Source of the DNA: Nanobdellota archaeon
GTDB lineage: Archaea; Nanobdellota; Nanobdellia; PEZQ01
Assembly: GCA_018220985.1 (NCBI GenBank)
Contig: JAAOXS010000002.1
Coordinates: 1-54,318 of the forward strand
Reading direction: 5' to 3'
DNA length: 54,318 bases
Shown here: one piece after another, positions 34,549 to 45,801 of the stretch
Layout of the letters: each line of letters begins with the position of its first letter
How positions within the stretch are numbered: the first letter of the stretch is position 1
Translations under genes and position numbers: made by a program
The notes under the pieces: model-generated
The model's input: only the letters and a program-made list of their open reading frames with translations
Database searches by the model: none
Told to the model about the DNA's origin: nothing

Positions 34549-34967
34549 TGAGTAGGGTATTCATTGATGGAAATAATGGCGTTCTTGGAAGAGTAGCTGC
34601 AAGAGCTGCTAAAAGCGCGTTGGAAGGTAATCACGTTTTCATTTTTAACGCTGAGAAATTAGTTGTTTCAGGTGATAAAACTTACTTGTTAAATCGTTAT
34701 TTGGATAGAATTCATAGAGGCGAATCTGTTCACGGTCCTTTTTTCCCTAAGACATCTAAGGGTATTGTTAAGCGAACTGTTCGTGGCATGTTACCTTACA
34801 AGTCAGGTAAGGGCAGGCAAGCGTTTAAGCGTGTTAAAGTTTATGAAGGCGTACCTGAACAATTTTCTAATGAGAAATTGGAATTGCCAAGTAAGTTGAA
34901 GGAAGATTTTAAAACGAAAAAGTATTTGAGAATTAAAAATATTAGTCAGAGGATTGGCGGTAAATGA
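34545..34967 (+). CDS. rpl13: ribosomal protein uL13
   Basis: VLGRVAARAAKSALEG...GPFFPKTSKGIVKRTVRGMLPYKSGKGRQAFKRVKVYEG. Confidence 0.96.
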   Translation: MMSRVFIDGNNGVLGRVAARAAKSALEGNHVFIFNAEKLVVSGDKTYLLNRYLDRIHRGESVHGPFFPKTSKGIVKRTVRGMLPYKSGKGRQAFKRVKVYEGVPEQFSNEKLELPSKLKEDFKTKKYLRIKNISQRIGGK

Positions 34968-35371
34968 AAACTATTCAAACTATTCAAGCAATTGGCAAGC
35001 GTAAAACAAGTGTTGCTCGTGCAACAATTAAGAAAGGTACTGGTGTTATTAGAGTTAATTCTTTGAAAGTTGAAGCTTTACAACCTGAAATGTTTAGGCA
35101 AATAATTATGGAGCCCATAATTCTTGCGGGGGATAAGGCAAGTAATGTTAATATTAATGTTAATGTGTTTGGCGGTGGCGTGATGTCTCAAGCTCAAGCT
35201 GTTAGAACTTCTATTGCTAATGCGTTAGTTGATTTTTTAAAGGATAAAGAGTTAAAAGATAAGTATTTGGATTATGATAGGCATATGCTTGTTGCAGATG
35301 TACGTCAGAAAGAGATGAGGAAACCTTATCGTTCTAGGGCGAGGGCGAGAAGGCAGAAGAGTAAGAGGTAA
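34964..35371 (+). CDS. rps9: ribosomal protein uS9
   Basis: AIGKRKTSVARATIKKG...GGGVMSQAQAVRTSIANAL...RKPYRSRARARRQKSKR. Confidence 0.97.
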   Translation: MKTIQTIQAIGKRKTSVARATIKKGTGVIRVNSLKVEALQPEMFRQIIMEPIILAGDKASNVNINVNVFGGGVMSQAQAVRTSIANALVDFLKDKELKDKYLDYDRHMLVADVRQKEMRKPYRSRARARRQKSKR

Positions 35372-35380
35372 AAAAATAAA

Positions 35381-35572
35381 ATGATAATTCCAATTAAGTG
35401 TTTTAGTTGCGGAAAACCTGTTGCACATTTATGGGATTCTTTTACTGAAGGTGTTAAGAAGAAGAAGGTTGAGAAAGTTCTTGACGATTTAGGTTTGGAA
35501 AGACAGTGTTGCAGAGCTCTTTTTTTAGGGCATGTTGATATGATTAAAACAATTTCAAAATATAGGAAGTAA
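35381..35572 (+). CDS. rpoN: DNA-directed RNA polymerase subunit N (Rpb10)
   Basis: MIIPIKCFSCGKPVAHLWDSF...LGLERQCCRALFLGHVDMI. Confidence 0.96.
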   Translation: MIIPIKCFSCGKPVAHLWDSFTEGVKKKKVEKVLDDLGLERQCCRALFLGHVDMIKTISKYRK

Positions 35573-35579
35573 TGGTTTA

Positions 35580-35798
35580 ATGACTAAGAAGAGTAAAGTC
35601 GGTTCAACGGGAAGGTACGGTGCACGTTATGGTTTAAAAATTAGGCGAAGAGTTTTAAGTATTGAACGTTTAAGTCGTAAAAAGCATAAGTGTCCTTACT
35701 GTTCGAGATTAAGGGTTAAGAGGTTGAGCTCTGGAATTTTTGAGTGCAGTAAATGCAGTTCAAAATTCACGGGTAGAGCTTACACGTATGATGGTTGA
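35580..35798 (+). CDS. rpl37ae: ribosomal protein eL43 (L37Ae)
   Basis: VGSTGRYGARYGLKIRRRV...HKCPYCSRLRVKRLSSGIFECSKCSSKFTGRAYTY. Confidence 0.95.
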   Translation: MTKKSKVGSTGRYGARYGLKIRRRVLSIERLSRKKHKCPYCSRLRVKRLSSGIFECSKCSSKFTGRAYTYDG

Positions 35799-35931
35799 GT
35801 ATAAATGTTTTAATTGTGGGAAAAAAATTGACGGAGAGCAAATTAAGCGACGTGTTCGTTGTCCTTACTGTAGTAGTAAGGTTTTGTTCAAGCAAAGACA
35901 GCCTGTTAAAAAAATTGTTAAGGCAAGATGA
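35788..35931 (+). CDS. rpoP: DNA-directed RNA polymerase subunit P (Rpb12)
   Basis: YKCFNCGKKIDGEQIKRRVRCPYCSSKVLFKQRQPVKK; overlaps eL43 3' end. Confidence 0.9.
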   Translation: MMVEYKCFNCGKKIDGEQIKRRVRCPYCSSKVLFKQRQPVKKIVKAR

Positions 35932-36146
35932 AGATTAAAATAAAACTTTTCGTTGATAACAGCGTTCGAGAACTCCTTGATGTGCAAAGGCAAGTTAAAG
36001 GCAGGTCGAAAACAAGTTATGACGAGGATGGCATAATCATTGAAGCAGAGGATGTTACTGCTGCTCGCGCAGCTGTTAACGCGAATTTACTGCTTTTAAA
36101 AACTGTTGAAAAGGTGAATGAAAAATGGAAGTACCTGAAAAAATAA
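35928..36146 (+). CDS. pcc1: KEOPS subunit Pcc1
   Basis: GIIIEAEDVTAARAAVNANLLLLKTVEKV; position between rpoP and prefoldin beta. Confidence 0.8.
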   Translation: MKIKIKLFVDNSVRELLDVQRQVKGRSKTSYDEDGIIIEAEDVTAARAAVNANLLLLKTVEKVNEKWKYLKK

Positions 36147-36469
36147 GAGAAGATATTGTTAGGTTGCAAAGTTTGCAGCAAAAATTGCAGTCTTTAATGA
36201 TGCAAAAACAGAATATTCAAATGCAAGTTGTTGAAGCGGATAACGCACTTAAGGAATTAGGTAATAAGCAAGCTTCAGAGGATGTTTACGAAATTGTTGG
36301 TGCTATAATGTTGAAGAAGGATGTTGGTGAACTTTCTAAAACGTTAACTGAGCGGAAAGACATTTTCGAGCTTCGTTCAAAATCTTACGATAAGCAAGTT
36401 AAAAACGTTAATGAAGATTTAAAAAAATTGCAGGAGAATATTGCGAGTAGTTTGAAAGAGAAAAAATGA
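36125..36469 (+). CDS. pfdB: prefoldin beta subunit
   Basis: LQSLQQKLQSLMMQKQNIQMQVVEADNALKELGN...VYEIVGAIMLKKD. Confidence 0.92.
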   Translation: MEVPEKIREDIVRLQSLQQKLQSLMMQKQNIQMQVVEADNALKELGNKQASEDVYEIVGAIMLKKDVGELSKTLTERKDIFELRSKSYDKQVKNVNEDLKKLQENIASSLKEKK

Positions 36470-36714
36470 GTGTTTTTGAAAGAGTTAGTGTTATACTGGA
36501 AGACGTCGTGCTTGATGATTCCGTTCCAAAAAATGTTAGGGAGCGAATTAATGAAGCTGTCTTGCTTTTAAACAAGTCTTTTGATGATTCCGATTTGCTT
36601 AGGGATTCAGTTAACGAAATTCTTGATTTAGTTGTTCAGGATACTAATTTACCTCTTCATACTCGAACTCAAATATGGAATTCCGTTTCCATTTTAGAAT
36701 CTGCAGAAAACTGA
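36466..36714 (+). CDS. UPF0147-family protein
   Basis: VLDDSVPKNVRERINEAVLLL...VVQDTNLPLHTRTQIWNSVSILES. Confidence 0.88.
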   Translation: MSVFERVSVILEDVVLDDSVPKNVRERINEAVLLLNKSFDDSDLLRDSVNEILDLVVQDTNLPLHTRTQIWNSVSILESAEN

Positions 36715-36792
36715 TTTCACAGCATAATAAAGCTTTTTAATGCGTGTTGTGAAAAAATTATTAACCCAAAAATTGGTATAGGTGAAATTAAA

Positions 36793-37188
36793 TTGATAGA
36801 TAAAATAAAAAACACTTTTTCAAGTTTTAAAAGTGCTTTCCCTAAAGAAAGTGATGATGAATTAAAAGAAGATTTTGTAGAATTAACTGCGAAAACAAGT
36901 GATTTAGGCGGTGCTAAGTTAGTTGTGAAATATTTTACTTTATCTGATTTCGCTGAAGTTAGAGAAATTCTTGATTCATTACGTGATGGTTACACAATAG
37001 CTTTCATTAAGATAAGGCCTTTAAAGGAACGTAATCTTAACGAGTTAAGACGTGCTATTGATAAGATTAAGAAAACGTGTTTTGCTCTTGAAGGTGAAGT
37101 TGTCGGTCTTGAGGAGGATTGGATTGTAGCTGTTCCTCCTTACGTTAAAGTTCATAGGGGGAGCTTAAATGAGGAAACATCATTTTAA
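36793..37188 (+). CDS. sepF: SepF-like cell-division protein (TTG start)
   Basis: LVVKYFTLSDFAEVREILDSLRDGYTIAFIKIRPL...LEEDWIVAVPPYVKV; AGGTGA upstream. Confidence 0.8.
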   Translation: MIDKIKNTFSSFKSAFPKESDDELKEDFVELTAKTSDLGGAKLVVKYFTLSDFAEVREILDSLRDGYTIAFIKIRPLKERNLNELRRAIDKIKKTCFALEGEVVGLEEDWIVAVPPYVKVHRGSLNEETSF

Positions 37189-37657
37189 CTCTTTGGTTTT
37201 TAACGCTTTATGTTCTCAGTGCGAGACTGATTCAGTTATAATTCATCAGAGAATGATTGACCTCCCTGAAGTAGGTAAGACTCTTAGGATTAATTCTTAT
37301 TGTGAGAATTGTCATGTGAATAGTTCTGAGTTCGTTCCTTTTCATGATAAGAAGAATTCTGTTTTCAAATTTTTGATAAATGATAAGTTGGATTTGAATG
37401 CTAAGGTTATTAAGAGTCAGGATTGTACTTTTAGGATTCCGGAGTTGGGTGTGGAGTTGGAGCCTGGACCTGAGTCTCAGGCTGAGATTATTAATGTTGA
37501 GGGTGTTTTGTCTAATATTACTTTGGCGTTGGATTATGAGTATGGTTCTAATAAGTTGAGTAATGATATTGCTCGTATTAGGAAGGGTAAGAAGAAGGTA
37601 ACTCTTGTTTTGGATGATCCTATGGGTGTTAGTAGGGTTATTCCTCGAAAATCGTGA
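37169..37657 (+). CDS. ZPR1-type zinc-finger protein
   Basis: CSQCETDSVI...IDLPEVGKTLRINSYCENCHVNSSEF...IPELGVELEPG. Confidence 0.88.
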   Translation: MRKHHFNSLVFNALCSQCETDSVIIHQRMIDLPEVGKTLRINSYCENCHVNSSEFVPFHDKKNSVFKFLINDKLDLNAKVIKSQDCTFRIPELGVELEPGPESQAEIINVEGVLSNITLALDYEYGSNKLSNDIARIRKGKKKVTLVLDDPMGVSRVIPRKS

Positions 37658-37774
37658 ATAACTTTAATAACAACCTTTTTTAGAAAAAAAACTTGAGCAA
37701 AAAACGTATTATTCTTTGTTTGAAGCTTAAAATCGTGAAAACTTTATAAATATTGAATTTTCTTTTATTTTATT

Positions 37775-37975
37775 ATGGGGCTTTCATTTTATGACGCGCT
37801 TATCGTTAGCGTTTTCATGGGCGTAATGTTTGGCGTTCTTTTTGGCGTTAAGTACTTGGTTAAAATTGAACGTCAGCAGAAAAAGACTTTGCAGAAAATT
37901 CTTAAAGTTGAAGAGCTAATAGTTTCAGCTGAGAAAAAAATTTTAGCTCGTTTAAATAAGAATAAAAAGAAATAA
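37775..37975 (+). CDS. small membrane/coiled-coil protein
   Basis: One TM followed by a Lys-rich helix; TATA-like CTTTATAAAT ~29 nt upstream. Confidence 0.5.
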   Translation: MGLSFYDALIVSVFMGVMFGVLFGVKYLVKIERQQKKTLQKILKVEELIVSAEKKILARLNKNKKK

Positions 37976-38007
37976 AATAAAAAGAAATATAAAATAAAAA
38001 GAAATAA

Positions 38008-38145
38008 TTAAGCAAGTACTTCATACTTTCCTATTTCTATTTGTTTTAGATTATTTGGTATTTCTGTTAGGTTTCTAGAGTGTACATATAGTTCTTTTAG
38101 TTTTGTTAGTTGTTTATAGGGTAAGGATATTCTTTTTTCATTCAT
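38008..38145 (-). CDS. 45-aa leucine-rich-repeat mini-protein or fragment (not in the supplied ORF track)
   Basis: Manual translation MNEKRISLPYKQLTKLKELYVHSRNLTEIPNNLKQIEIGKYEVLA*. Confidence 0.45.
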   Translation of the reverse strand: MNEKRISLPYKQLTKLKELYVHSRNLTEIPNNLKQIEIGKYEVLA

Positions 38146-38194
38146 GCAAAATTTAACTTAAATGCCTTTTTTAAGGTTTATGGTCTATTTTTGT

Positions 38195-38974
38195 TTAGAA
38201 GATGATGAATAGTGAGATTAAATAACCTATTATTGAGCTTATCGTAAGTACTGGCATTGCAGGGTAGTATTTTCCTTTTTCCGTTTGTAAAAGCATTATT
38301 ACAAGCCCTGCGAACGCGCCGAGCGCGATTAGCAAACTCGTTATTGGAGTTAGTATAAACGTGCTTGCGAATAGTAGTGGAAACGCAACATCTCCGCCGC
38401 CGAGCACGCTCTGATCTTTTTTGTTTTTGTTTATCACTATTCCTGGGAAGACTCCTGTTTGCGATTGCGTTTTAGCCATTTTAATCATGTGCTTAGAGTA
38501 GTTAACTGAATAAATATCGTAGAATGATATGAATCCGAGTAATAGTATTGTTGTTAACGGGTTAAACATGGGTGTTATGACTGCTATGGCTCCGCCGTAA
38601 ATCAGTATTTCGCTGATGTTATGCCAGAAGTCGTCGGACTCGTTCAATTTTATCCATGAAATTATTAGTGCGATGAGGAGTGCGTATTCTTGTACAAACG
38701 CGTAGAGTGATACTGTTATTGCAGCTGTTGTGCCCATAAAATAAACTGTTTTCCATATTTGTGGTTTTTTTAGTTTTATTATTATGAGTATTATTATTGT
38801 TATTAGTACGAGCATGCCTACAAATTTTGTTAAGGATAATACGCCTTCATCGGGTAGTGTTTCCATGCCAAAGGGCAGTGGGTTTGACCTGTAATGGTTA
38901 ACCACAAATAATCCGAATATTTGGCATGCTAAGAAGATGAGTGCTATGTAAAATGTGTTCTGCCTTTTCCCCAT
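38195..38974 (-). CDS. presenilin/signal-peptide-peptidase family (A22) intramembrane aspartyl protease
   Basis: Multi-TM with FYDIYSV, VLGGGDVAFPLLF and PAMPVL motifs. Confidence 0.88.
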   Translation of the reverse strand: MGKRQNTFYIALIFLACQIFGLFVVNHYRSNPLPFGMETLPDEGVLSLTKFVGMLVLITIIILIIIKLKKPQIWKTVYFMGTTAAITVSLYAFVQEYALLIALIISWIKLNESDDFWHNISEILIYGGAIAVITPMFNPLTTILLLGFISFYDIYSVNYSKHMIKMAKTQSQTGVFPGIVINKNKKDQSVLGGGDVAFPLLFASTFILTPITSLLIALGAFAGLVIMLLQTEKGKYYPAMPVLTISSIIGYLISLFIIF

Positions 38975-38991
38975 TAATTATTTAATGATTA

Positions 38992-40200
38992 TTATTCGTT
39001 TATAATTTCTCCGATTAAGCAGTGCGTTTTTGCTTCAACAATTTTAACCATGACTGTTTCCCCAATTGTTCCATTATTTATTATTACTTGTTTGTACGCG
39101 TAATTTCTTCCTATCATTCCGTTTTTGTTTTTTTCATCAATTAATATTTCGCCTTTCCAGCCTACCCATTTTTTATTGTTCTCTAAACTGATTTGTTGGA
39201 ATAGTTTTGTTATTTTTCTACTTCTCTCTTTTCTAATTATGTTTGGCAATTGTTTCAATTCACTTGCTTGCGTACCCTCCATCGCGCAGTACATGCTAAT
39301 ATTGATTACGTCTGGTCTAATTTTTTGTACTAATTCAATTGTTTTTTTGAAATCGTTTTCGGTTTCGGTTGGGAATCCTGTAATAATGTCTGTTGCAATG
39401 GTTATTTTCGGAAACGTTTTTCTGAATTCCATAATTATTTTTTCAAAACTTTTAGTGGTGTATCCTCTGTTCATTTCTTTTAACACTTTATCACTGCCTG
39501 ATTGTACTGGTAAGTGTAAAAATTTGAATATTGAATTCGACTTATAAGCATCTATTAGTTCTGGTAGTATTTTCAAAACGTGTTTTGAGTTCATCATTCC
39601 AACTCTAATCTTTGAATTTCCTTTAATTTTTTTTAATAATTTGGCAAGGTTTGTTCCAATATCCAATCCGTAAGTTGACATGTCTTGCGCTGTCAGCCAA
39701 ACTTCTTTAGAACTTACTTGTTTTACAATATCTTCAATTGGGAATGAGTGTAAATGACCTCGTGCTTTTTTCGTGATGCAATACGCACAATTTCCTAAGC
39801 ACCCGTCAGCAATGGGTATTATCTTTATTATTTCGTTTTCTTCTTGCTCTAATCTCGCCCTGTTCGATTTCTTTTTTTGTGAGGGTTCGTTATTAATTAT
39901 ATCTGGTATGCTTTCCAACTCGTCTAATTCTGCGAATAAGTGTTGCGGAAATCGTTTTTTTAAATTTTTTTTTTTAACTTCAACTAAGCAGCCAGTAACT
40001 AAAACTTTTTTTTCTTTTAATTCTTCTAATTTCTTGATTATCTTATTTTCTGTTGGTTTTTTCACTGTGCACGTGTTAACTATTATTAATTCAGCTTTAT
40101 TTTTAACAATTTTATGACCTTTTTTTTCTAATAATTTTTTTATGATTGCGCTGTCGCTTTTATTGTAAGCGCATCCGTAAGTAATAATTTTTATTCGCAT
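38992..40200 (-). CDS. radical-SAM tRNA methylthiotransferase (MiaB/MtaB-like)
   Basis: KIITYGCAYNKSDSAII; DGCLGNCAYCITKKARG; FKFLHLPVQSGSDKVLKEMNRGYT; IATDIITGFPTETE. Confidence 0.94.
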   Translation of the reverse strand: MRIKIITYGCAYNKSDSAIIKKLLEKKGHKIVKNKAELIIVNTCTVKKPTENKIIKKLEELKEKKVLVTGCLVEVKKKNLKKRFPQHLFAELDELESIPDIINNEPSQKKKSNRARLEQEENEIIKIIPIADGCLGNCAYCITKKARGHLHSFPIEDIVKQVSSKEVWLTAQDMSTYGLDIGTNLAKLLKKIKGNSKIRVGMMNSKHVLKILPELIDAYKSNSIFKFLHLPVQSGSDKVLKEMNRGYTTKSFEKIIMEFRKTFPKITIATDIITGFPTETENDFKKTIELVQKIRPDVINISMYCAMEGTQASELKQLPNIIRKERSRKITKLFQQISLENNKKWVGWKGEILIDEKNKNGMIGRNYAYKQVIINNGTIGETVMVKIVEAKTHCLIGEIINE

Positions 40201-40261
40201 TATTCAAAAATGTATGATAGAACTATTTTTATTTCTTGCGCAAACCAACTTTTTTTCTCTT

Positions 40262-40507
40262 TTATTTGTTGTAGAAGATTAGTGTTGTCGCGCCAATACC
40301 TAGTATAATTCCAAAAATGGTTGCTTTAAAGTTTATGACGAATCCGCCCATGCTTTCCATGAATATGCTGAATAGCATCACCCATGTGAATATTATGAAA
40401 GCGTACAATGTCATCACGTGTTTCTTCATCGGATTAATCACGATTACTTCTGGTTTTCTCACGCGCTTTTTAGCACTTCCTTTTTTAGCGATTTTTTTTC
40501 GAGGCAT
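40262..40507 (-). CDS. small membrane protein with basic N-terminus
   Basis: MPRKKIAKKGSAKKRVRK followed by two TM segments. Confidence 0.55.
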   Translation of the reverse strand: MPRKKIAKKGSAKKRVRKPEVIVINPMKKHVMTLYAFIIFTWVMLFSIFMESMGGFVINFKATIFGIILGIGATTLIFYNK

Positions 40508-40602
40508 AATGTATTATTCATTTTTTTTGAAATATAAAACTTAGGTTATTATAGTGTTAGTGTATAAAAATTATTTTAAATATGTAAATTCTATTATTAA
40601 CT

Positions 40603-40905
40603 ATGTGTTTGAAAAATTTACTATTTGAAGATTCTATTAAAAGATTATGTGAAAAACATGATTTAAACGAATATTGTTCAAATATTCGAAAATTGTCAAA
40701 AAACCAGTATACTGCATTTTTTAACTGGTTTACTAAATATAATTTAAAAAATGATTTGGAGTTGAAATCAATTATTCTTAAACATAAACCTTTAATTTCA
40801 GCATTAGAATCTTTGAATAATGTTGATTCTGCTAGTTTTGAGTGCAAGAATAGTGGTATTTTTAGTATTCATGTTGTCAAAAAAGATTTAAATATTGAAG
40901 AATAA
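40603..40905 (+). CDS. hypothetical protein (100 aa)
   Basis: ORF preferred over the overlapping antisense ORF. Confidence 0.45.
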   Translation: MCLKNLLFEDSIKRLCEKHDLNEYCSNIRKLSKNQYTAFFNWFTKYNLKNDLELKSIILKHKPLISALESLNNVDSASFECKNSGIFSIHVVKKDLNIEE

Positions 40906-41000
40906 TAAAAGATATTATTATGAGAGTTGATCGTCCCACATTATAAGAAAGACTTTATTACTCTCAAGTTTTCTAAAAAAATTGTGTTAGGTGATGTTTT

Positions 41001-42491
41001 ATGAATAAAGTTAAGAGCGATGGCGAAAAAATTAGTGAAGCTTTAAAATCTGAGGATAAATTAAAATCTTACTGGCATATTCTCACGCCAAAAGGTGATT
41101 TAATCGATTTAAAATTGGTTAATAATAATGTTTCAGGCTTTGATTTTGGCAAGTATGATAAATTAAGAACTTTCACACAGTACGAAATGGCTAAGGATAG
41201 ACGTGTGAAAAGCACGCCGCCTCACGTTACTTACATGCGCAAGCTTGAAATAGCTGATTATGAGGAAGGCAGTGATCCTGGAAATTTAAGGTATTATCCT
41301 AATGGTAAATTGATTCGTGATTTAATAATGCAGTACGATGATGAAATTATGGTTGAGAATGGTGCTATGAAAATTGAAACACCAATGATGCTCGATTCAA
41401 ATCATCATTCTTTAGTTAAGTACATGAACCGTTTCCCTGCCAGACAGTACATTGTTGAAAGCGTTAAAAGAAAATTTTTCTTACGTTTCGCATCTTGTTT
41501 CGGCCAGTTTTTGATGATGAAGGATGCTGTTATTTCTTATCGTAATTTGCCGATTTGGGTTTACGAGCTTGCTCAAAACTGTTTCCGTCTTGAAAATCGC
41601 GGGGAGCTTAGTGGATTGAGGAGAGTGAGAACTTTTGTCATGCCTGATTGTCACGCGTTTTGCGCTGACATGGAACAGGCTAAAACCGAGTTCTTTAAGC
41701 GTTTTAATATTAGTGTGGATTTAATGAATAATATTGGTTTTGAGGTTAAGAACGAGTTTGAGTTTGCTATTCGTGTTGTTCGTTCTTTCTGGGATGAGAA
41801 TAAGGATTTCATTAAAGAATTAGTTAAGCAGTGGAATAAGCCAACTCTTATTGAGATTTGGGATGAAAGACATTTCTATTTTGTTTTGAAATACGAGTTT
41901 AATTTTGTGGACGTGTTAGATAAGGCGAGTGCTTTAACAACTGATCAGATTGATGTTGAGAATGGTCCAGAATTTCCTGTTAAATTTATGGATAAGGATA
42001 ACAAGAAGAAGCCTGTGACAATTCTTCACTGGTCTCCTAGTGGTGCTATTTGTCGTGTGATGTATAGTTTATTAGAACGCGCTGCGTGGATGGAGAAGGG
42101 TGGTAAGTTACCTATTCTTCCTTTCTGGTTAAGCCCTGAGCAGGTTAGGATTTTACCAGTGGCTGATAGGCATATTGTTGCTGCTGAAAAGTTATCTAAG
42201 AAGTTAGTGGGTGTTCGTGTTGGGATTGATGATAGGGCTGAAGGTGTTCCCAAGAAAGTTGCGAAAGTTAAGAGTGATTGGATTCCTTATTTCATAGTCG
42301 TGGGTGATAAGGAAGCTGAGAGCGGAGAGTTAAACGTTTTTAAGCGTGATGATAACAAGTTTGAAATGTTAAGCATTCAAAGTTTTAAGAAATTGTTGAA
42401 GAATAAACAAGGTAGTATGCCTTTTCGTAAAATGTACGTTCCGCAATTAATATCTAAGCGGCCTATTTTTGTTCCGTGGGGTAAGCGATGA
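41001..42491 (+). CDS. thrS: threonyl-tRNA synthetase, catalytic and anticodon-binding portion lacking the N-terminal archaeal editing domain
   Basis: SYWHILTPKGDLID...PPHVTYMRKLEIADYEEGSDPGNLRYYPNGKLIRDLI; CFRLENRGELSGLRRVRTFVMPDCHAFC; C-terminal anticodon-binding domain; upstream AGGTGAT. Confidence 0.93.
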   Translation: MNKVKSDGEKISEALKSEDKLKSYWHILTPKGDLIDLKLVNNNVSGFDFGKYDKLRTFTQYEMAKDRRVKSTPPHVTYMRKLEIADYEEGSDPGNLRYYPNGKLIRDLIMQYDDEIMVENGAMKIETPMMLDSNHHSLVKYMNRFPARQYIVESVKRKFFLRFASCFGQFLMMKDAVISYRNLPIWVYELAQNCFRLENRGELSGLRRVRTFVMPDCHAFCADMEQAKTEFFKRFNISVDLMNNIGFEVKNEFEFAIRVVRSFWDENKDFIKELVKQWNKPTLIEIWDERHFYFVLKYEFNFVDVLDKASALTTDQIDVENGPEFPVKFMDKDNKKKPVTILHWSPSGAICRVMYSLLERAAWMEKGGKLPILPFWLSPEQVRILPVADRHIVAAEKLSKKLVGVRVGIDDRAEGVPKKVAKVKSDWIPYFIVVGDKEAESGELNVFKRDDNKFEMLSIQSFKKLLKNKQGSMPFRKMYVPQLISKRPIFVPWGKR

Positions 42492-42895
42492 AAGTTTTGA
42501 ATTTGCACTGTTCCACGTTTTCTTATAACACTGTTAAGCCAACTCCTGTTGCTGTCGGTAATGCTAATGAGGGTGTTTTTGATAATGTGATGGTTTGTCT
42601 TACGAGTTTTGAAAAAAGTGATGAGGGTAGGGTTAGTGAAATTGTTGAGAGTTTTAAGAAGAATTTGTTGGTTGATTTTTCTCGTATAAAGTTTTCAACT
42701 GTTTTATTATATCCTTATGCTCATTTATCTAAGAGTTTGGGGAGTCCTAGGAAGGCAGTTGAGTTTTTAGAATTGTTGAAAGAGAGTTTGAACGATTGTG
42801 AGTTTAAAGTTGAAAGTTCTCCTTTTGGTTGGTATAAGAGTTGGGAAATGTCTTGTAAGGGGCATCCTTTAGCTGAAGCTTTTAGAGAGTATTAA
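42488..42895 (+). CDS. freestanding archaeal ThrRS editing domain (tRNA_Thr_ED-like)
   Basis: KVLNLHCSTFSY...VLLYPYAHLSKSLGSPRKAVEFLELLKESL...ESSPFGWYKSWEMSCKGHPLAEAFREY; ATGA overlap with thrS. Confidence 0.9.
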   Translation: MKVLNLHCSTFSYNTVKPTPVAVGNANEGVFDNVMVCLTSFEKSDEGRVSEIVESFKKNLLVDFSRIKFSTVLLYPYAHLSKSLGSPRKAVEFLELLKESLNDCEFKVESSPFGWYKSWEMSCKGHPLAEAFREY

Positions 42896-42947
42896 GTATG
42901 TTGATAGATTATTTTACTTAATTTGTTAGTTCTTTTTTTTTCATATT

Positions 42948-43457
42948 TCATTTTGCTAAATGAATATAATAAGAATATAATAAATTTCTATCTTTACCAT
43001 CTAATTTATCAAACCATTTCTTGTTTGCATTATTTTTTGTTAGTTCTTGCAATAATTTTTTTATTTCTTCGTAATTTTCTTTTTTATTTTTAGGATTTAT
43101 TAGTTCAATTTTAGTTTTTATTTCTTGAAGAATTTCTTTACGGTTCTTTGTTTTTTTAGAAACTGGTTTTAGCGCGTTTTTCGCAATGTGATATAAATGT
43201 CTTGCATATTCTCGTCCTCTTTTAACATTAAATTTAGAATGTTTTGAGTTGTATGATTCTATTATGTCTTTTATTGCATTACACCTGCCTTTATCTCCTC
43301 CCATCCATTCAGGATATTTTTCTCTTATTTCTTCACATAACAAATATAGTCTTGGAACTATTTTTTTAGCTTCGTTAGGTGTTATGTCCTGTCCTTTTCT
43401 TTCTTGTTCTATGATGTTCACAATTTTTTCTAAAATATCTCTTAGATCATTATTCAT
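42948..43457 (-). CDS. helical hypothetical protein (169 aa)
   Basis: Complete ORF, no family recognised. Confidence 0.5.
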   Translation of the reverse strand: MNNDLRDILEKIVNIIEQERKGQDITPNEAKKIVPRLYLLCEEIREKYPEWMGGDKGRCNAIKDIIESYNSKHSKFNVKRGREYARHLYHIAKNALKPVSKKTKNRKEILQEIKTKIELINPKNKKENYEEIKKLLQELTKNNANKKWFDKLDGKDRNLLYSYYIHLAK

Positions 43458-43465
43458 ATTTTTTT

Positions 43466-44125
43466 TTAATAATTATATTTTACGCTTATCCTGCTTACGT
43501 GTTTTCCTATTTCTTTTGACGTGTTCGCGAGTTGAGCTAACCAGTAAACAATGTCTTTTAGTAATAGTAAGTCTTTTTGTCTTAGTTTTGTTTTAAAAAT
43601 GTTTGAGTATATTTCGTATTCCAAGTCTCGTGCTTCATGTCTTAGTCGTATTATGTTGTCATTAAGGCTTGTTGCAAGTTCGAAATCTTTTCTCATGTAA
43701 ATTATTGTTTCATGCACTAATTCCGTAATTTTAACTGAGTACGCTGAGAGTTTTAGAATATCGTTTTTTAGTTTAGTGTTTAATCTTACTTGTTTTATGA
43801 GTAATAATTTGCTTAAGCGTTCACTTATGTCTGATAAAGTGTCTATCATGCTTGCAAGTTTAGACCAGTCTTCATGAGTGTATGGTAATAAGTTGCCTTT
43901 GAATAATTTTTTGTTTAGTGTTGCGTTAATCTTATCATTTTCGTCTTCTAACATTTCTATTCGCGCGCATTTTTCACTGATTTTTTTGTTTTCAAAATAA
44001 TCTATTAAAACTTGGTTTACGAGTTTTACACTTGCCACACTGTTCTCAACGTGTTGTACGAATAGTTTTAGAATTGTTTTTTCGTTTTTTTTTATTCTAA
44101 AAATTTTGTTAAGTATATTCATCAA
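43466..44125 (-). CDS. PhoU-like/DUF47 phosphate-transport accessory protein
   Basis: All-helical DUF47-like sequence, divergent to the PiT transporter. Confidence 0.75.
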   Translation of the reverse strand: MMNILNKIFRIKKNEKTILKLFVQHVENSVASVKLVNQVLIDYFENKKISEKCARIEMLEDENDKINATLNKKLFKGNLLPYTHEDWSKLASMIDTLSDISERLSKLLLIKQVRLNTKLKNDILKLSAYSVKITELVHETIIYMRKDFELATSLNDNIIRLRHEARDLEYEIYSNIFKTKLRQKDLLLLKDIVYWLAQLANTSKEIGKHVSRISVKYNY

Positions 44126-44162
44126 TAAGTATTATTAGGGTGTAAAGTAGTATTTATTATGT

Positions 44163-45098
44163 ATGATTGAATTAGTTTTTTTTGTTCTCGTTTTTTATTT
44201 AGCTTGGTGTATTGGAACTAATTTGGAGAGTTTTGCGAGCATTGTGGGCAGTAGGGTTGTTTCTCTTAGAAAAGCTCTTATTATCGCGTCAATAGCCGTG
44301 TTTATTGGCGCTTGTTTTTTTGGCGGTAACGTTTCCAAAACTTTACGTGAAGAAGTTACTAACATTTCAGGTGACGTTTTTGTTTTAAGCGTTCTTGCTG
44401 GTGCTGGTTTTTGGATTGCTTTTGCGAGTTGGCGGTCGTGGAACATTTCTACAACTGCTAGTATTGTTGGTAGTTTAGTTGGTGTTGCATTATTTACGGG
44501 CAGGGTTGTTAATTGGTCTACTGTTTTTGAAATATTGCTGGGTTGGTTTACTTCTCCGCTTATTGGTTTTTTCTTATCTTTCTTTTTCGTTATTATTCTT
44601 TCGCGTTTAATCAATTTTTTTGTTAAAGGTTTTGAAGGTTTAGAAATTTGGGAGTTGCGTTTAGCGTTTGTTCAGTTAGTGTTTACTTTTTTTAGTGTTC
44701 TGGTTCGCGCTGCTAATGATGTGGCGCAGGCAGTTTTCTTTTTTGATTTATCAAGTCATGTTTTCATTCTTATCGCAGCGTTTGGTATGAGTGTTGGTTT
44801 ACTTACTCTTGGTAAGAATGTTGTTAAAGGTTTAGGTTCGCGTCTTACCAAGCTTTCGCCTAGTTCAGGTTTGGCTGTTCAATTATCAACTTTTTTTGCT
44901 TTATCTTTTTTCACGGGTTTTGGAGTGCCTGTAAGTGGTAGCGTGATTTTTGTAAGCGCTATGGCGGGAGCTGGTTTTGCTCGCGGTCAGCGCGTGAATA
45001 AGAGTTTTTTGAAGCAGACAGTGATGTCTTGGATTATTACCATGCCTGTTACAGCAGTTATCAGTGTTGGTTTTTTTATTGTTTTAGGATTATTTTGA
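44163..45098 (+). CDS. PiT-family inorganic phosphate transporter
   Basis: AWCIGTNLESFASIVGSRVV and RAANDVAQAV duplicated PiT signature regions. Confidence 0.88.
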   Translation: MIELVFFVLVFYLAWCIGTNLESFASIVGSRVVSLRKALIIASIAVFIGACFFGGNVSKTLREEVTNISGDVFVLSVLAGAGFWIAFASWRSWNISTTASIVGSLVGVALFTGRVVNWSTVFEILLGWFTSPLIGFFLSFFFVIILSRLINFFVKGFEGLEIWELRLAFVQLVFTFFSVLVRAANDVAQAVFFFDLSSHVFILIAAFGMSVGLLTLGKNVVKGLGSRLTKLSPSSGLAVQLSTFFALSFFTGFGVPVSGSVIFVSAMAGAGFARGQRVNKSFLKQTVMSWIITMPVTAVISVGFFIVLGLF

Positions 45099-45801
45099 TT
45101 GGTGCGTGGTCGCTTCCCATTACGTATTTTAATATTTTTGAGTTTTCTATTTTGTTTTCTAATCTTTTGCTGGTTAGGAAGTAATCTATTCGCCAGCCCA
45201 CGTTTCGTTCTCTTGCTTTAAACCTGTAAGTCCACCACGTGTATTGCCCGCTTTCTTTGTTGAACATTCTGAAAGTGTCTGTGAATCCTGTGTTTAACAA
45301 TTTTGTGAAGTCTTCTCTTTCTTCTGAACTGAATCCAGGGTTTTTAGTGTTTGTTTTAGGGTTGGTTAAGTCTATTTCTTTATGAGCTACGTTTAAGTCT
45401 CCGCAAAGAATTACTGGTTTTTTTTCATTTAATTCTTGTAAGTATTGTCTGAATTGTTCGTTCCATTTTCTTTTGTATTCTAGTCTCGCAAGTTCTCTTT
45501 GCGCGTTAATAACGTAAACGTTCACTAAGAAGAATTTTTCGAATTCGAGAGTGAGTATTCTTCCTTCACTGTCCATTTTTGTTACGCTTAATGGTTTTTG
45601 TTTGGTTAGGATGGCTGTTCCAGAGTACCCTTTTTTTTCGGCAAAATGCCAGTAAGAATGATAGCCTTCAAATTCTTTTTTTTCGTTTATTTTTGTTTCT
45701 TGTAAGCAGAGCATGTCTGGTTGTTCGCGTTCTAAGAATTCGTTAAATCCTTTTCGCATTACTGATCGTATCCCATTCACGTTCCAAGAAATTATTTTCA
45801 T
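45076..45801 (-). CDS. xthA: exodeoxyribonuclease III
   Basis: KIISWNVNGIRSV, LCLQETKI, CGDLNVAHKEIDL, WRIDYFLTS, GSDHAPI. Confidence 0.96.
   Translation of the reverse strand: MKIISWNVNGIRSVMRKGFNEFLEREQPDMLCLQETKINEKKEFEGYHSYWHFAEKKGYSGTAILTKQKPLSVTKMDSEGRILTLEFEKFFLVNVYVINAQRELARLEYKRKWNEQFRQYLQELNEKKPVILCGDLNVAHKEIDLTNPKTNTKNPGFSSEEREDFTKLLNTGFTDTFRMFNKESGQYTWWTYRFKARERNVGWRIDYFLTSKRLENKIENSKILKYVMGSDHAPIKIILKQ

Follow-up and report, generated by a model that had tools for sequence, protein, structure and literature searches.

We find that the threonyl-tRNA synthetase (ThrRS) locus of this small-genome archaeon in the window, the whole stretch of 54,318 nucleotides that was analysed, very probably consists of the two halves of an archaeal ThrRS-R arranged in reverse order within one operon, of which the 135-aa half would be a freestanding deacylase acting in trans and the catalytic half a gene that can be replaced. 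The features of the window locus (WIN) and its flanks are the following:

41001..42491, forward strand: ThrRS gene of the archaeal (ThrRS-R) type, 496 aa, with linker, class II core and anticodon-binding domain
42488..42895, forward strand: gene of the tRNA-Thr editing protein, a freestanding single domain of 135 aa (PF08915, DTD-like fold)
42488..42491, forward strand: ATGA overlap, in which the start codon of the editing gene and the ThrRS stop codon share letters
40989..40995, forward strand: AGGTGAT, a Shine-Dalgarno-like motif read from the sequence, 5 nt before the ThrRS ATG
40262..40507, reverse strand: gene for a small membrane protein that bounds the block of synteny with the sister genome G001 upstream (39% identity)
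45076..45801, reverse strand: exonuclease III-like gene (named from sequence inspection), downstream syntenic anchor with G001 (57% identity)

The first-pass annotation had described a split ThrRS that lacks the N-terminal editing domain (ED) and a reverse gene order, catalytic then editing, with a 4-nt ATGA overlap. Both points hold. The editing and ThrRS proteins are encoded as separate ORFs (41001-42491 and 42488-42895), and the profile NF003068 is divided between them, with the editing protein matching positions 1-137 and ThrRS matching from position 142. Because of these matches, the cut is placed exactly at the border between editing domain and linker. The Shine-Dalgarno-like motif would support the start ATG of the ThrRS gene, and the ATGA overlap by itself suggests co-translation of both genes. 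A chance pairing is ruled out by the E-values given below and by other genomes, in which the arrangement is conserved.

As had been predicted, a profile search assigns the 135-aa protein to PF08915 and the 496-aa protein to the synthetase core and anticodon domains. The 496-aa protein matches tRNA-synt_2b with an E-value of 2e-16 and HGTP_anticodon with 2.2e-15, while none of PF08915, TGS and tRNA_SAD matched in this search. The threonine--tRNA ligase profile NF003068 scores 565 bits (cut-off 484) and aligns from position 142 of 613. In an alignment with solved ThrRS chains, C166, H218 and H343 fall on the three zinc ligands of the E. coli enzyme, and the motif 2 arginine R196 and the motif 3 arginine R352 are kept. 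Its nearest relatives are ThrRS of the archaeal type. The protein has the class II core, the anticodon domain and the zinc ligands of an archaeal ThrRS-R and lacks the N-terminal editing domain in cis.

PF08915 covers the whole 135-aa protein (134.9 bits against a cut-off of 30.2, positions 1-136/137, E 1.6e-39). Its structure model has a pLDDT of 94 and superimposes in Foldseek on the M. jannaschii domain 4rrf with a TMq of 0.94 and an rmsd of 1.4. Residues P76, Y77, A78, H79, Y116, K117 and E130 correspond to P80, F81, A82, H83, Y120, K121 and E134 of PabNTD, so that the only change in the active site is Y for F. The full-domain match, the DTD-like fold and the counterparts of PabNTD His83, Tyr120, Lys121 and Glu134 identify the protein as a member of PF08915. 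It contains this domain alone, without an anticodon-binding domain, and thereby departs from the layout of crenarchaeal ThrRS-2. Most likely, it is a freestanding deacylase that would act in trans on Ser-tRNA-Thr.

G001, which is 99% complete, is the one further genome sampled from the window's order. Both share a long syntenic block, corresponding to window positions 34964-45801, and the flanks of the ThrRS site are conserved, with the small membrane protein upstream being 39% and the exonuclease III-like protein downstream 57% identical. An editing gene is located at the same syntenic place, and its product is 58% identical to the window ED. The ThrRS at this site is a different one. It is a 640-aa protein of the common bacterial type (ThrRS-C), composed of TGS, tRNA_SAD, core and anticodon domains and so equipped with an editing domain of its own; its gene lies 286 nt ahead of the ED gene. 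Since window and G001 differ beside a shared ED, the catalytic gene has been exchanged in place in one of the two lineages. The form in the window is likely the older one, given its relatives in family f71. That the ED has been kept next to a foreign ThrRS argues that it can do without its ancestral partner.

Family f71, which belongs to the window's class, carries catalytic-then-editing pairs in three genera (L099, L100, L101). Between the f71 genomes G170 and G236 both genes agree, with identities of 69.8% and 68.9%. Between G170 and G190, however, the EDs are 87.4% identical and the catalytic proteins only 41.3%. The catalytic protein of G190 groups with the fused enzyme of another family in the tree with ThrRS-C outgroups, where both are long rows. 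This is likely a second catalytic replacement beside a retained ED. Because of the ThrRS type in G001 and the identity mismatch between G190 and G170, it is probable that the editing gene has persisted while the catalytic half next to it was replaced in place on two or more occasions. The first-pass annotation held neither the recurrence of the arrangement in several DPANN lineages nor the catalytic swap beside a constant ED, once to a bacterial-type ThrRS in the sister genus and again in a second family.

A survey of gene order recovers the same order in several DPANN lineages against a background of fused enzymes. In the phylum of the window, PF08915 is found in 95 of 285 genomes, mostly inside open frames of about 510-950 aa, which represent the fused form. 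Archaeal-type pairs in catalytic-then-editing order occur in the window, in three f71 genomes, in an Aenigmatarchaeota MAG (L005) and in a Micrarchaeota MAG (L030). L125 has the same order with a ThrRS-C-like core without TGS and SAD matches and a 4-nt overlap. The domain is present in 136 of 160 sampled Aenigmatarchaeota genomes, mostly fused, and in at least 170 of 197 Micrarchaeota genomes, again mostly fused among the matches listed. The survey also took in 250 genomes from another archaeal phylum, sampled around a Bathyarchaeota MAG. Among the matches listed there, nearly all frames have about 566 aa or more, 13 frames of 383-481 aa have the size expected for an ED with an anticodon domain, and three are shorter than 200 aa, two of these at contig ends. 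Single-domain EDs away from any ThrRS are found in L123 and L124.

Several further arrangements were seen in these samples. Some Aenigmatarchaeota genomes that also encode a fused ThrRS contain freestanding ED paralogs beside genes for cysteine desulfurase and IscU-like proteins (L116:2809-3216(-), L119:2878-3291(+), L120:2773-3186(-)). Their position beside sulfur genes fits the reported link between tRNA-Thr-ED and sulfur genes, and with Tyr120 changed to I/V and Glu134 to V they may differ in specificity. Freestanding PF08915 proteins that are divergent and lack the Glu134 position are encoded at L103:2801-3229, L104:3002-3415, L105:2914-3438(-) and L106:215-562. The genomes of the last three (G018, G068, G256) have a bacterial-type ThrRS. 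The freestanding ED of L103 is located in a 100% complete genome (G060:C16), for which no ThrRS matched at E 1e-20 with 4 of 7 candidates scored, and this may be a limit of the search. In the Aenigmatarchaeota MAG G285, ThrRS and ED genes form two pairs. At L005:1037-2539 the ED follows a catalytic gene of archaeal type that contains a TAA in frame; a frameshift was considered here and rejected in favour of this stop codon. At L115:2990-5203 the ED precedes a ThrRS-C-like core that lacks TGS and SAD. This double set might reflect an ongoing replacement or an error in the sequence. In family f13, class mates of the window, an archaeal editing domain is fused to a ThrRS-C-like core (L041 in G173, L049 in G024), which is another ThrRS domain shuffle.

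In the archaeal-type catalytic tree, from which the ThrRS-C outgroup and two long rows were left out, the window protein, L099, L101 and L005 form one clade with support of 98/95. L030 is sister to the fused micrarchaeal enzyme (98/94). Forcing it into the window clade is rejected with a p-AU of 4.4e-6, which rules out a single origin that includes the micrarchaeal pair. Because L030 is rejected from the clade of window, f71 and L005, the catalytic-then-editing order arose at least twice. When the distant ThrRS-C outgroups and the two long rows are included, the split catalytic proteins form no clade and the window becomes basal, probably through long-branch attraction. In the ED tree, window and G001 are united with 100/100 on a long branch of uncertain position; grouping them with the EDs of f71 is not rejected (p-AU 0.31). 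The window ED could be of different origin from the adjoining catalytic gene. The first-pass annotation had proposed an intermediate between fused and dispersed forms. This is borne out for the micrarchaeal L030 pair, which is nested among fused relatives in both the catalytic and the ED tree. For the window's own clade, whose root is not fixed by the trees, we infer a fused ancestor and a step from fused to split. The reversed order might have arisen if a fused gene was duplicated in tandem and the two copies then lost opposite halves.

The mechanism that we propose starts from a ThrRS-R cut at the border between editing domain and linker, the halves of which share one operon but in the opposite order. 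Charging of tRNA-Thr would fall to the 496-aa protein. The 135-aa DTD-fold deacylase, probably a homodimer that does not need the catalytic protein, would act in trans and strip serine from mischarged tRNA-Thr. Editing in trans, as predicted in the first-pass annotation, is made probable by the separate ED, by the pairs in other genomes and by published work on A. pernix and on U73, from which the activity here is extrapolated. The NTD of A. pernix is a trans module that in isolation tells Ser from Thr, and isolated archaeal editing domains deacylate Ser-tRNA-Thr (PMC4491819). The 135-aa protein would read the acceptor end (U73) and not the anticodon, and tRNA-Thr-ED alone is reported to discriminate tRNAs via U73 (PMC8762117). 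Among 22 tRNA genes examined in the window's genome, with the acceptor stem read by eye for a few, U73 occurs only in tRNA-Thr(UGU), tRNA-Thr(GGU) and tRNA-Cys. Because U73 is restricted to these tRNAs, a single-domain ED could stay selective without an anticodon domain, and U73 would then be the specificity element in this organism. With the two halves apart, replacement of the catalytic gene in place, as in the relatives, is possible while the editing gene stays.

One alternative is an assembly or sequencing error that broke or rearranged a fused gene, an objection already named in the first-pass annotation. The window stems from one MAG whose coverage is not known. Such an error is nevertheless highly improbable: the same ED gene occupies the same syntenic place in the independent, 99% complete G001, five further genomes have the same gene order and no sequencing error could put the domains in reverse order. 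We reject it as origin of the split because of the synteny and the other genomes. A second full-length fused ThrRS was also sought. Neither a second ThrRS nor a second editing domain was found in the 24 contigs of the window's own genome (G000, 83.57% complete), and one could lie in the missing part.

Overlapping co-directional genes (window, L005, L125) or near-abutting ones (L099, L100, L101, L030) would also be expected if both proteins re-associated as a non-covalent ThrRS complex that edits in 'quasi-cis', with operon and ATGA overlap serving equal protein amounts and the ED doing little alone. Archaeal EDs do dimerise, with Glu134 of one subunit entering the site of the other (PMC4491819). 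We regard this complex as rather unlikely, as the EDs of G001 and G190 persist by an unrelated or divergent catalytic protein, which speaks against a long-kept interface, the single-domain EDs of L123 and L124 lie away from any ThrRS and isolated EDs are active (PMC4491819). Independent acquisition is unlikely as well. The ED would then be a tRNA-Thr-ED like that of the SepCysS family, acting on any tRNA with U73 including Ser-tRNA-Cys, and its placement in the operon would be secondary. The long, separate branch of the window and G001 EDs, the presence of U73 on tRNA-Cys and the standalone tRNA-Thr-ED genes described near SepCysS (PMC5424206, PMC8762117) agree with such an origin. Yet the ED lies in a ThrRS operon in two families, its cut point is the border of the fused domain and a clade with the split f71 EDs is not rejected. 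SepCysS (TIGR02539) has no match in G000, which is 83.6% complete, or in G001, and we reject a SepCysS association of the window ED. Within the preferred reading of reversed ThrRS-R halves, we tentatively suggest that the split may have made the ED a self-standing quality-control gene for tRNAs with U73 (Thr, perhaps Cys). This gene would outlive its synthetase, which is exchanged in place between ancient forms of ThrRS and even for one that carries an editing domain itself, and fidelity would be inherited separately from the charging enzyme.

Freestanding editing is known from ThrRS-ed/ThrRS-2 and from standalone tRNA-Thr-ED near SepCysS and in Ignicoccus (PMC4491819, PMC5424206, PMC8762117). 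The literature searched, which left out most subscription papers, yielded no account of a ThrRS-ED operon in reversed order from DPANN; as far as this literature goes, the permuted operon, its recurrence in DPANN and the catalytic exchange beside a retained ED are new. The series of fused, split in operon, swapped catalytic partner and dispersed forms represents a natural record of how proofreading becomes trans-acting, and the G001 pair of trans-ED and SAD-bearing ThrRS is a concrete case for testing the tie between ED and enzyme. Two ancient ThrRS forms are known to replace each other, possibly in syntenic context (PMC3191353). The window's ThrRS site adds a syntenic locus with in-place homeoallele replacement, which is one of two routes that Andam and Gogarten proposed (PMC3191353).

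Compared to the full-length ThrRS-R of P. abyssi and M. jannaschii, the window locus has the same editing, linker, core and anticodon domains and active-site residues, but it encodes two proteins instead of one, in reversed gene order and with an ED that would act in trans. Similar to crenarchaeal ThrRS-1 and ThrRS-2 (ThrRS-ed) of A. pernix and S. solfataricus, an ED-less catalytic protein is accompanied by a separate editing protein. In crenarchaeal ThrRS-2 the ED is linked to an anticodon-binding domain (PMC4491819), whereas in the window a bare 135-aa ED lies in the ThrRS operon. The standalone tRNA-Thr-ED, found near SepCysS and as Ser-tRNA-Thr hydrolase of Ignicoccus hospitalis, is a freestanding homolog like the window ED, which is a bare single domain with a ThrRS-type active site. 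The former is tied to cysteine/SepCysS genes, the latter to a ThrRS gene in a genome where SepCysS was not found. DTD and ATD resemble the window ED in fold (TMq about 0.6-0.73); they differ in sequence family and specificity, while the window ED keeps the PF08915 motifs.
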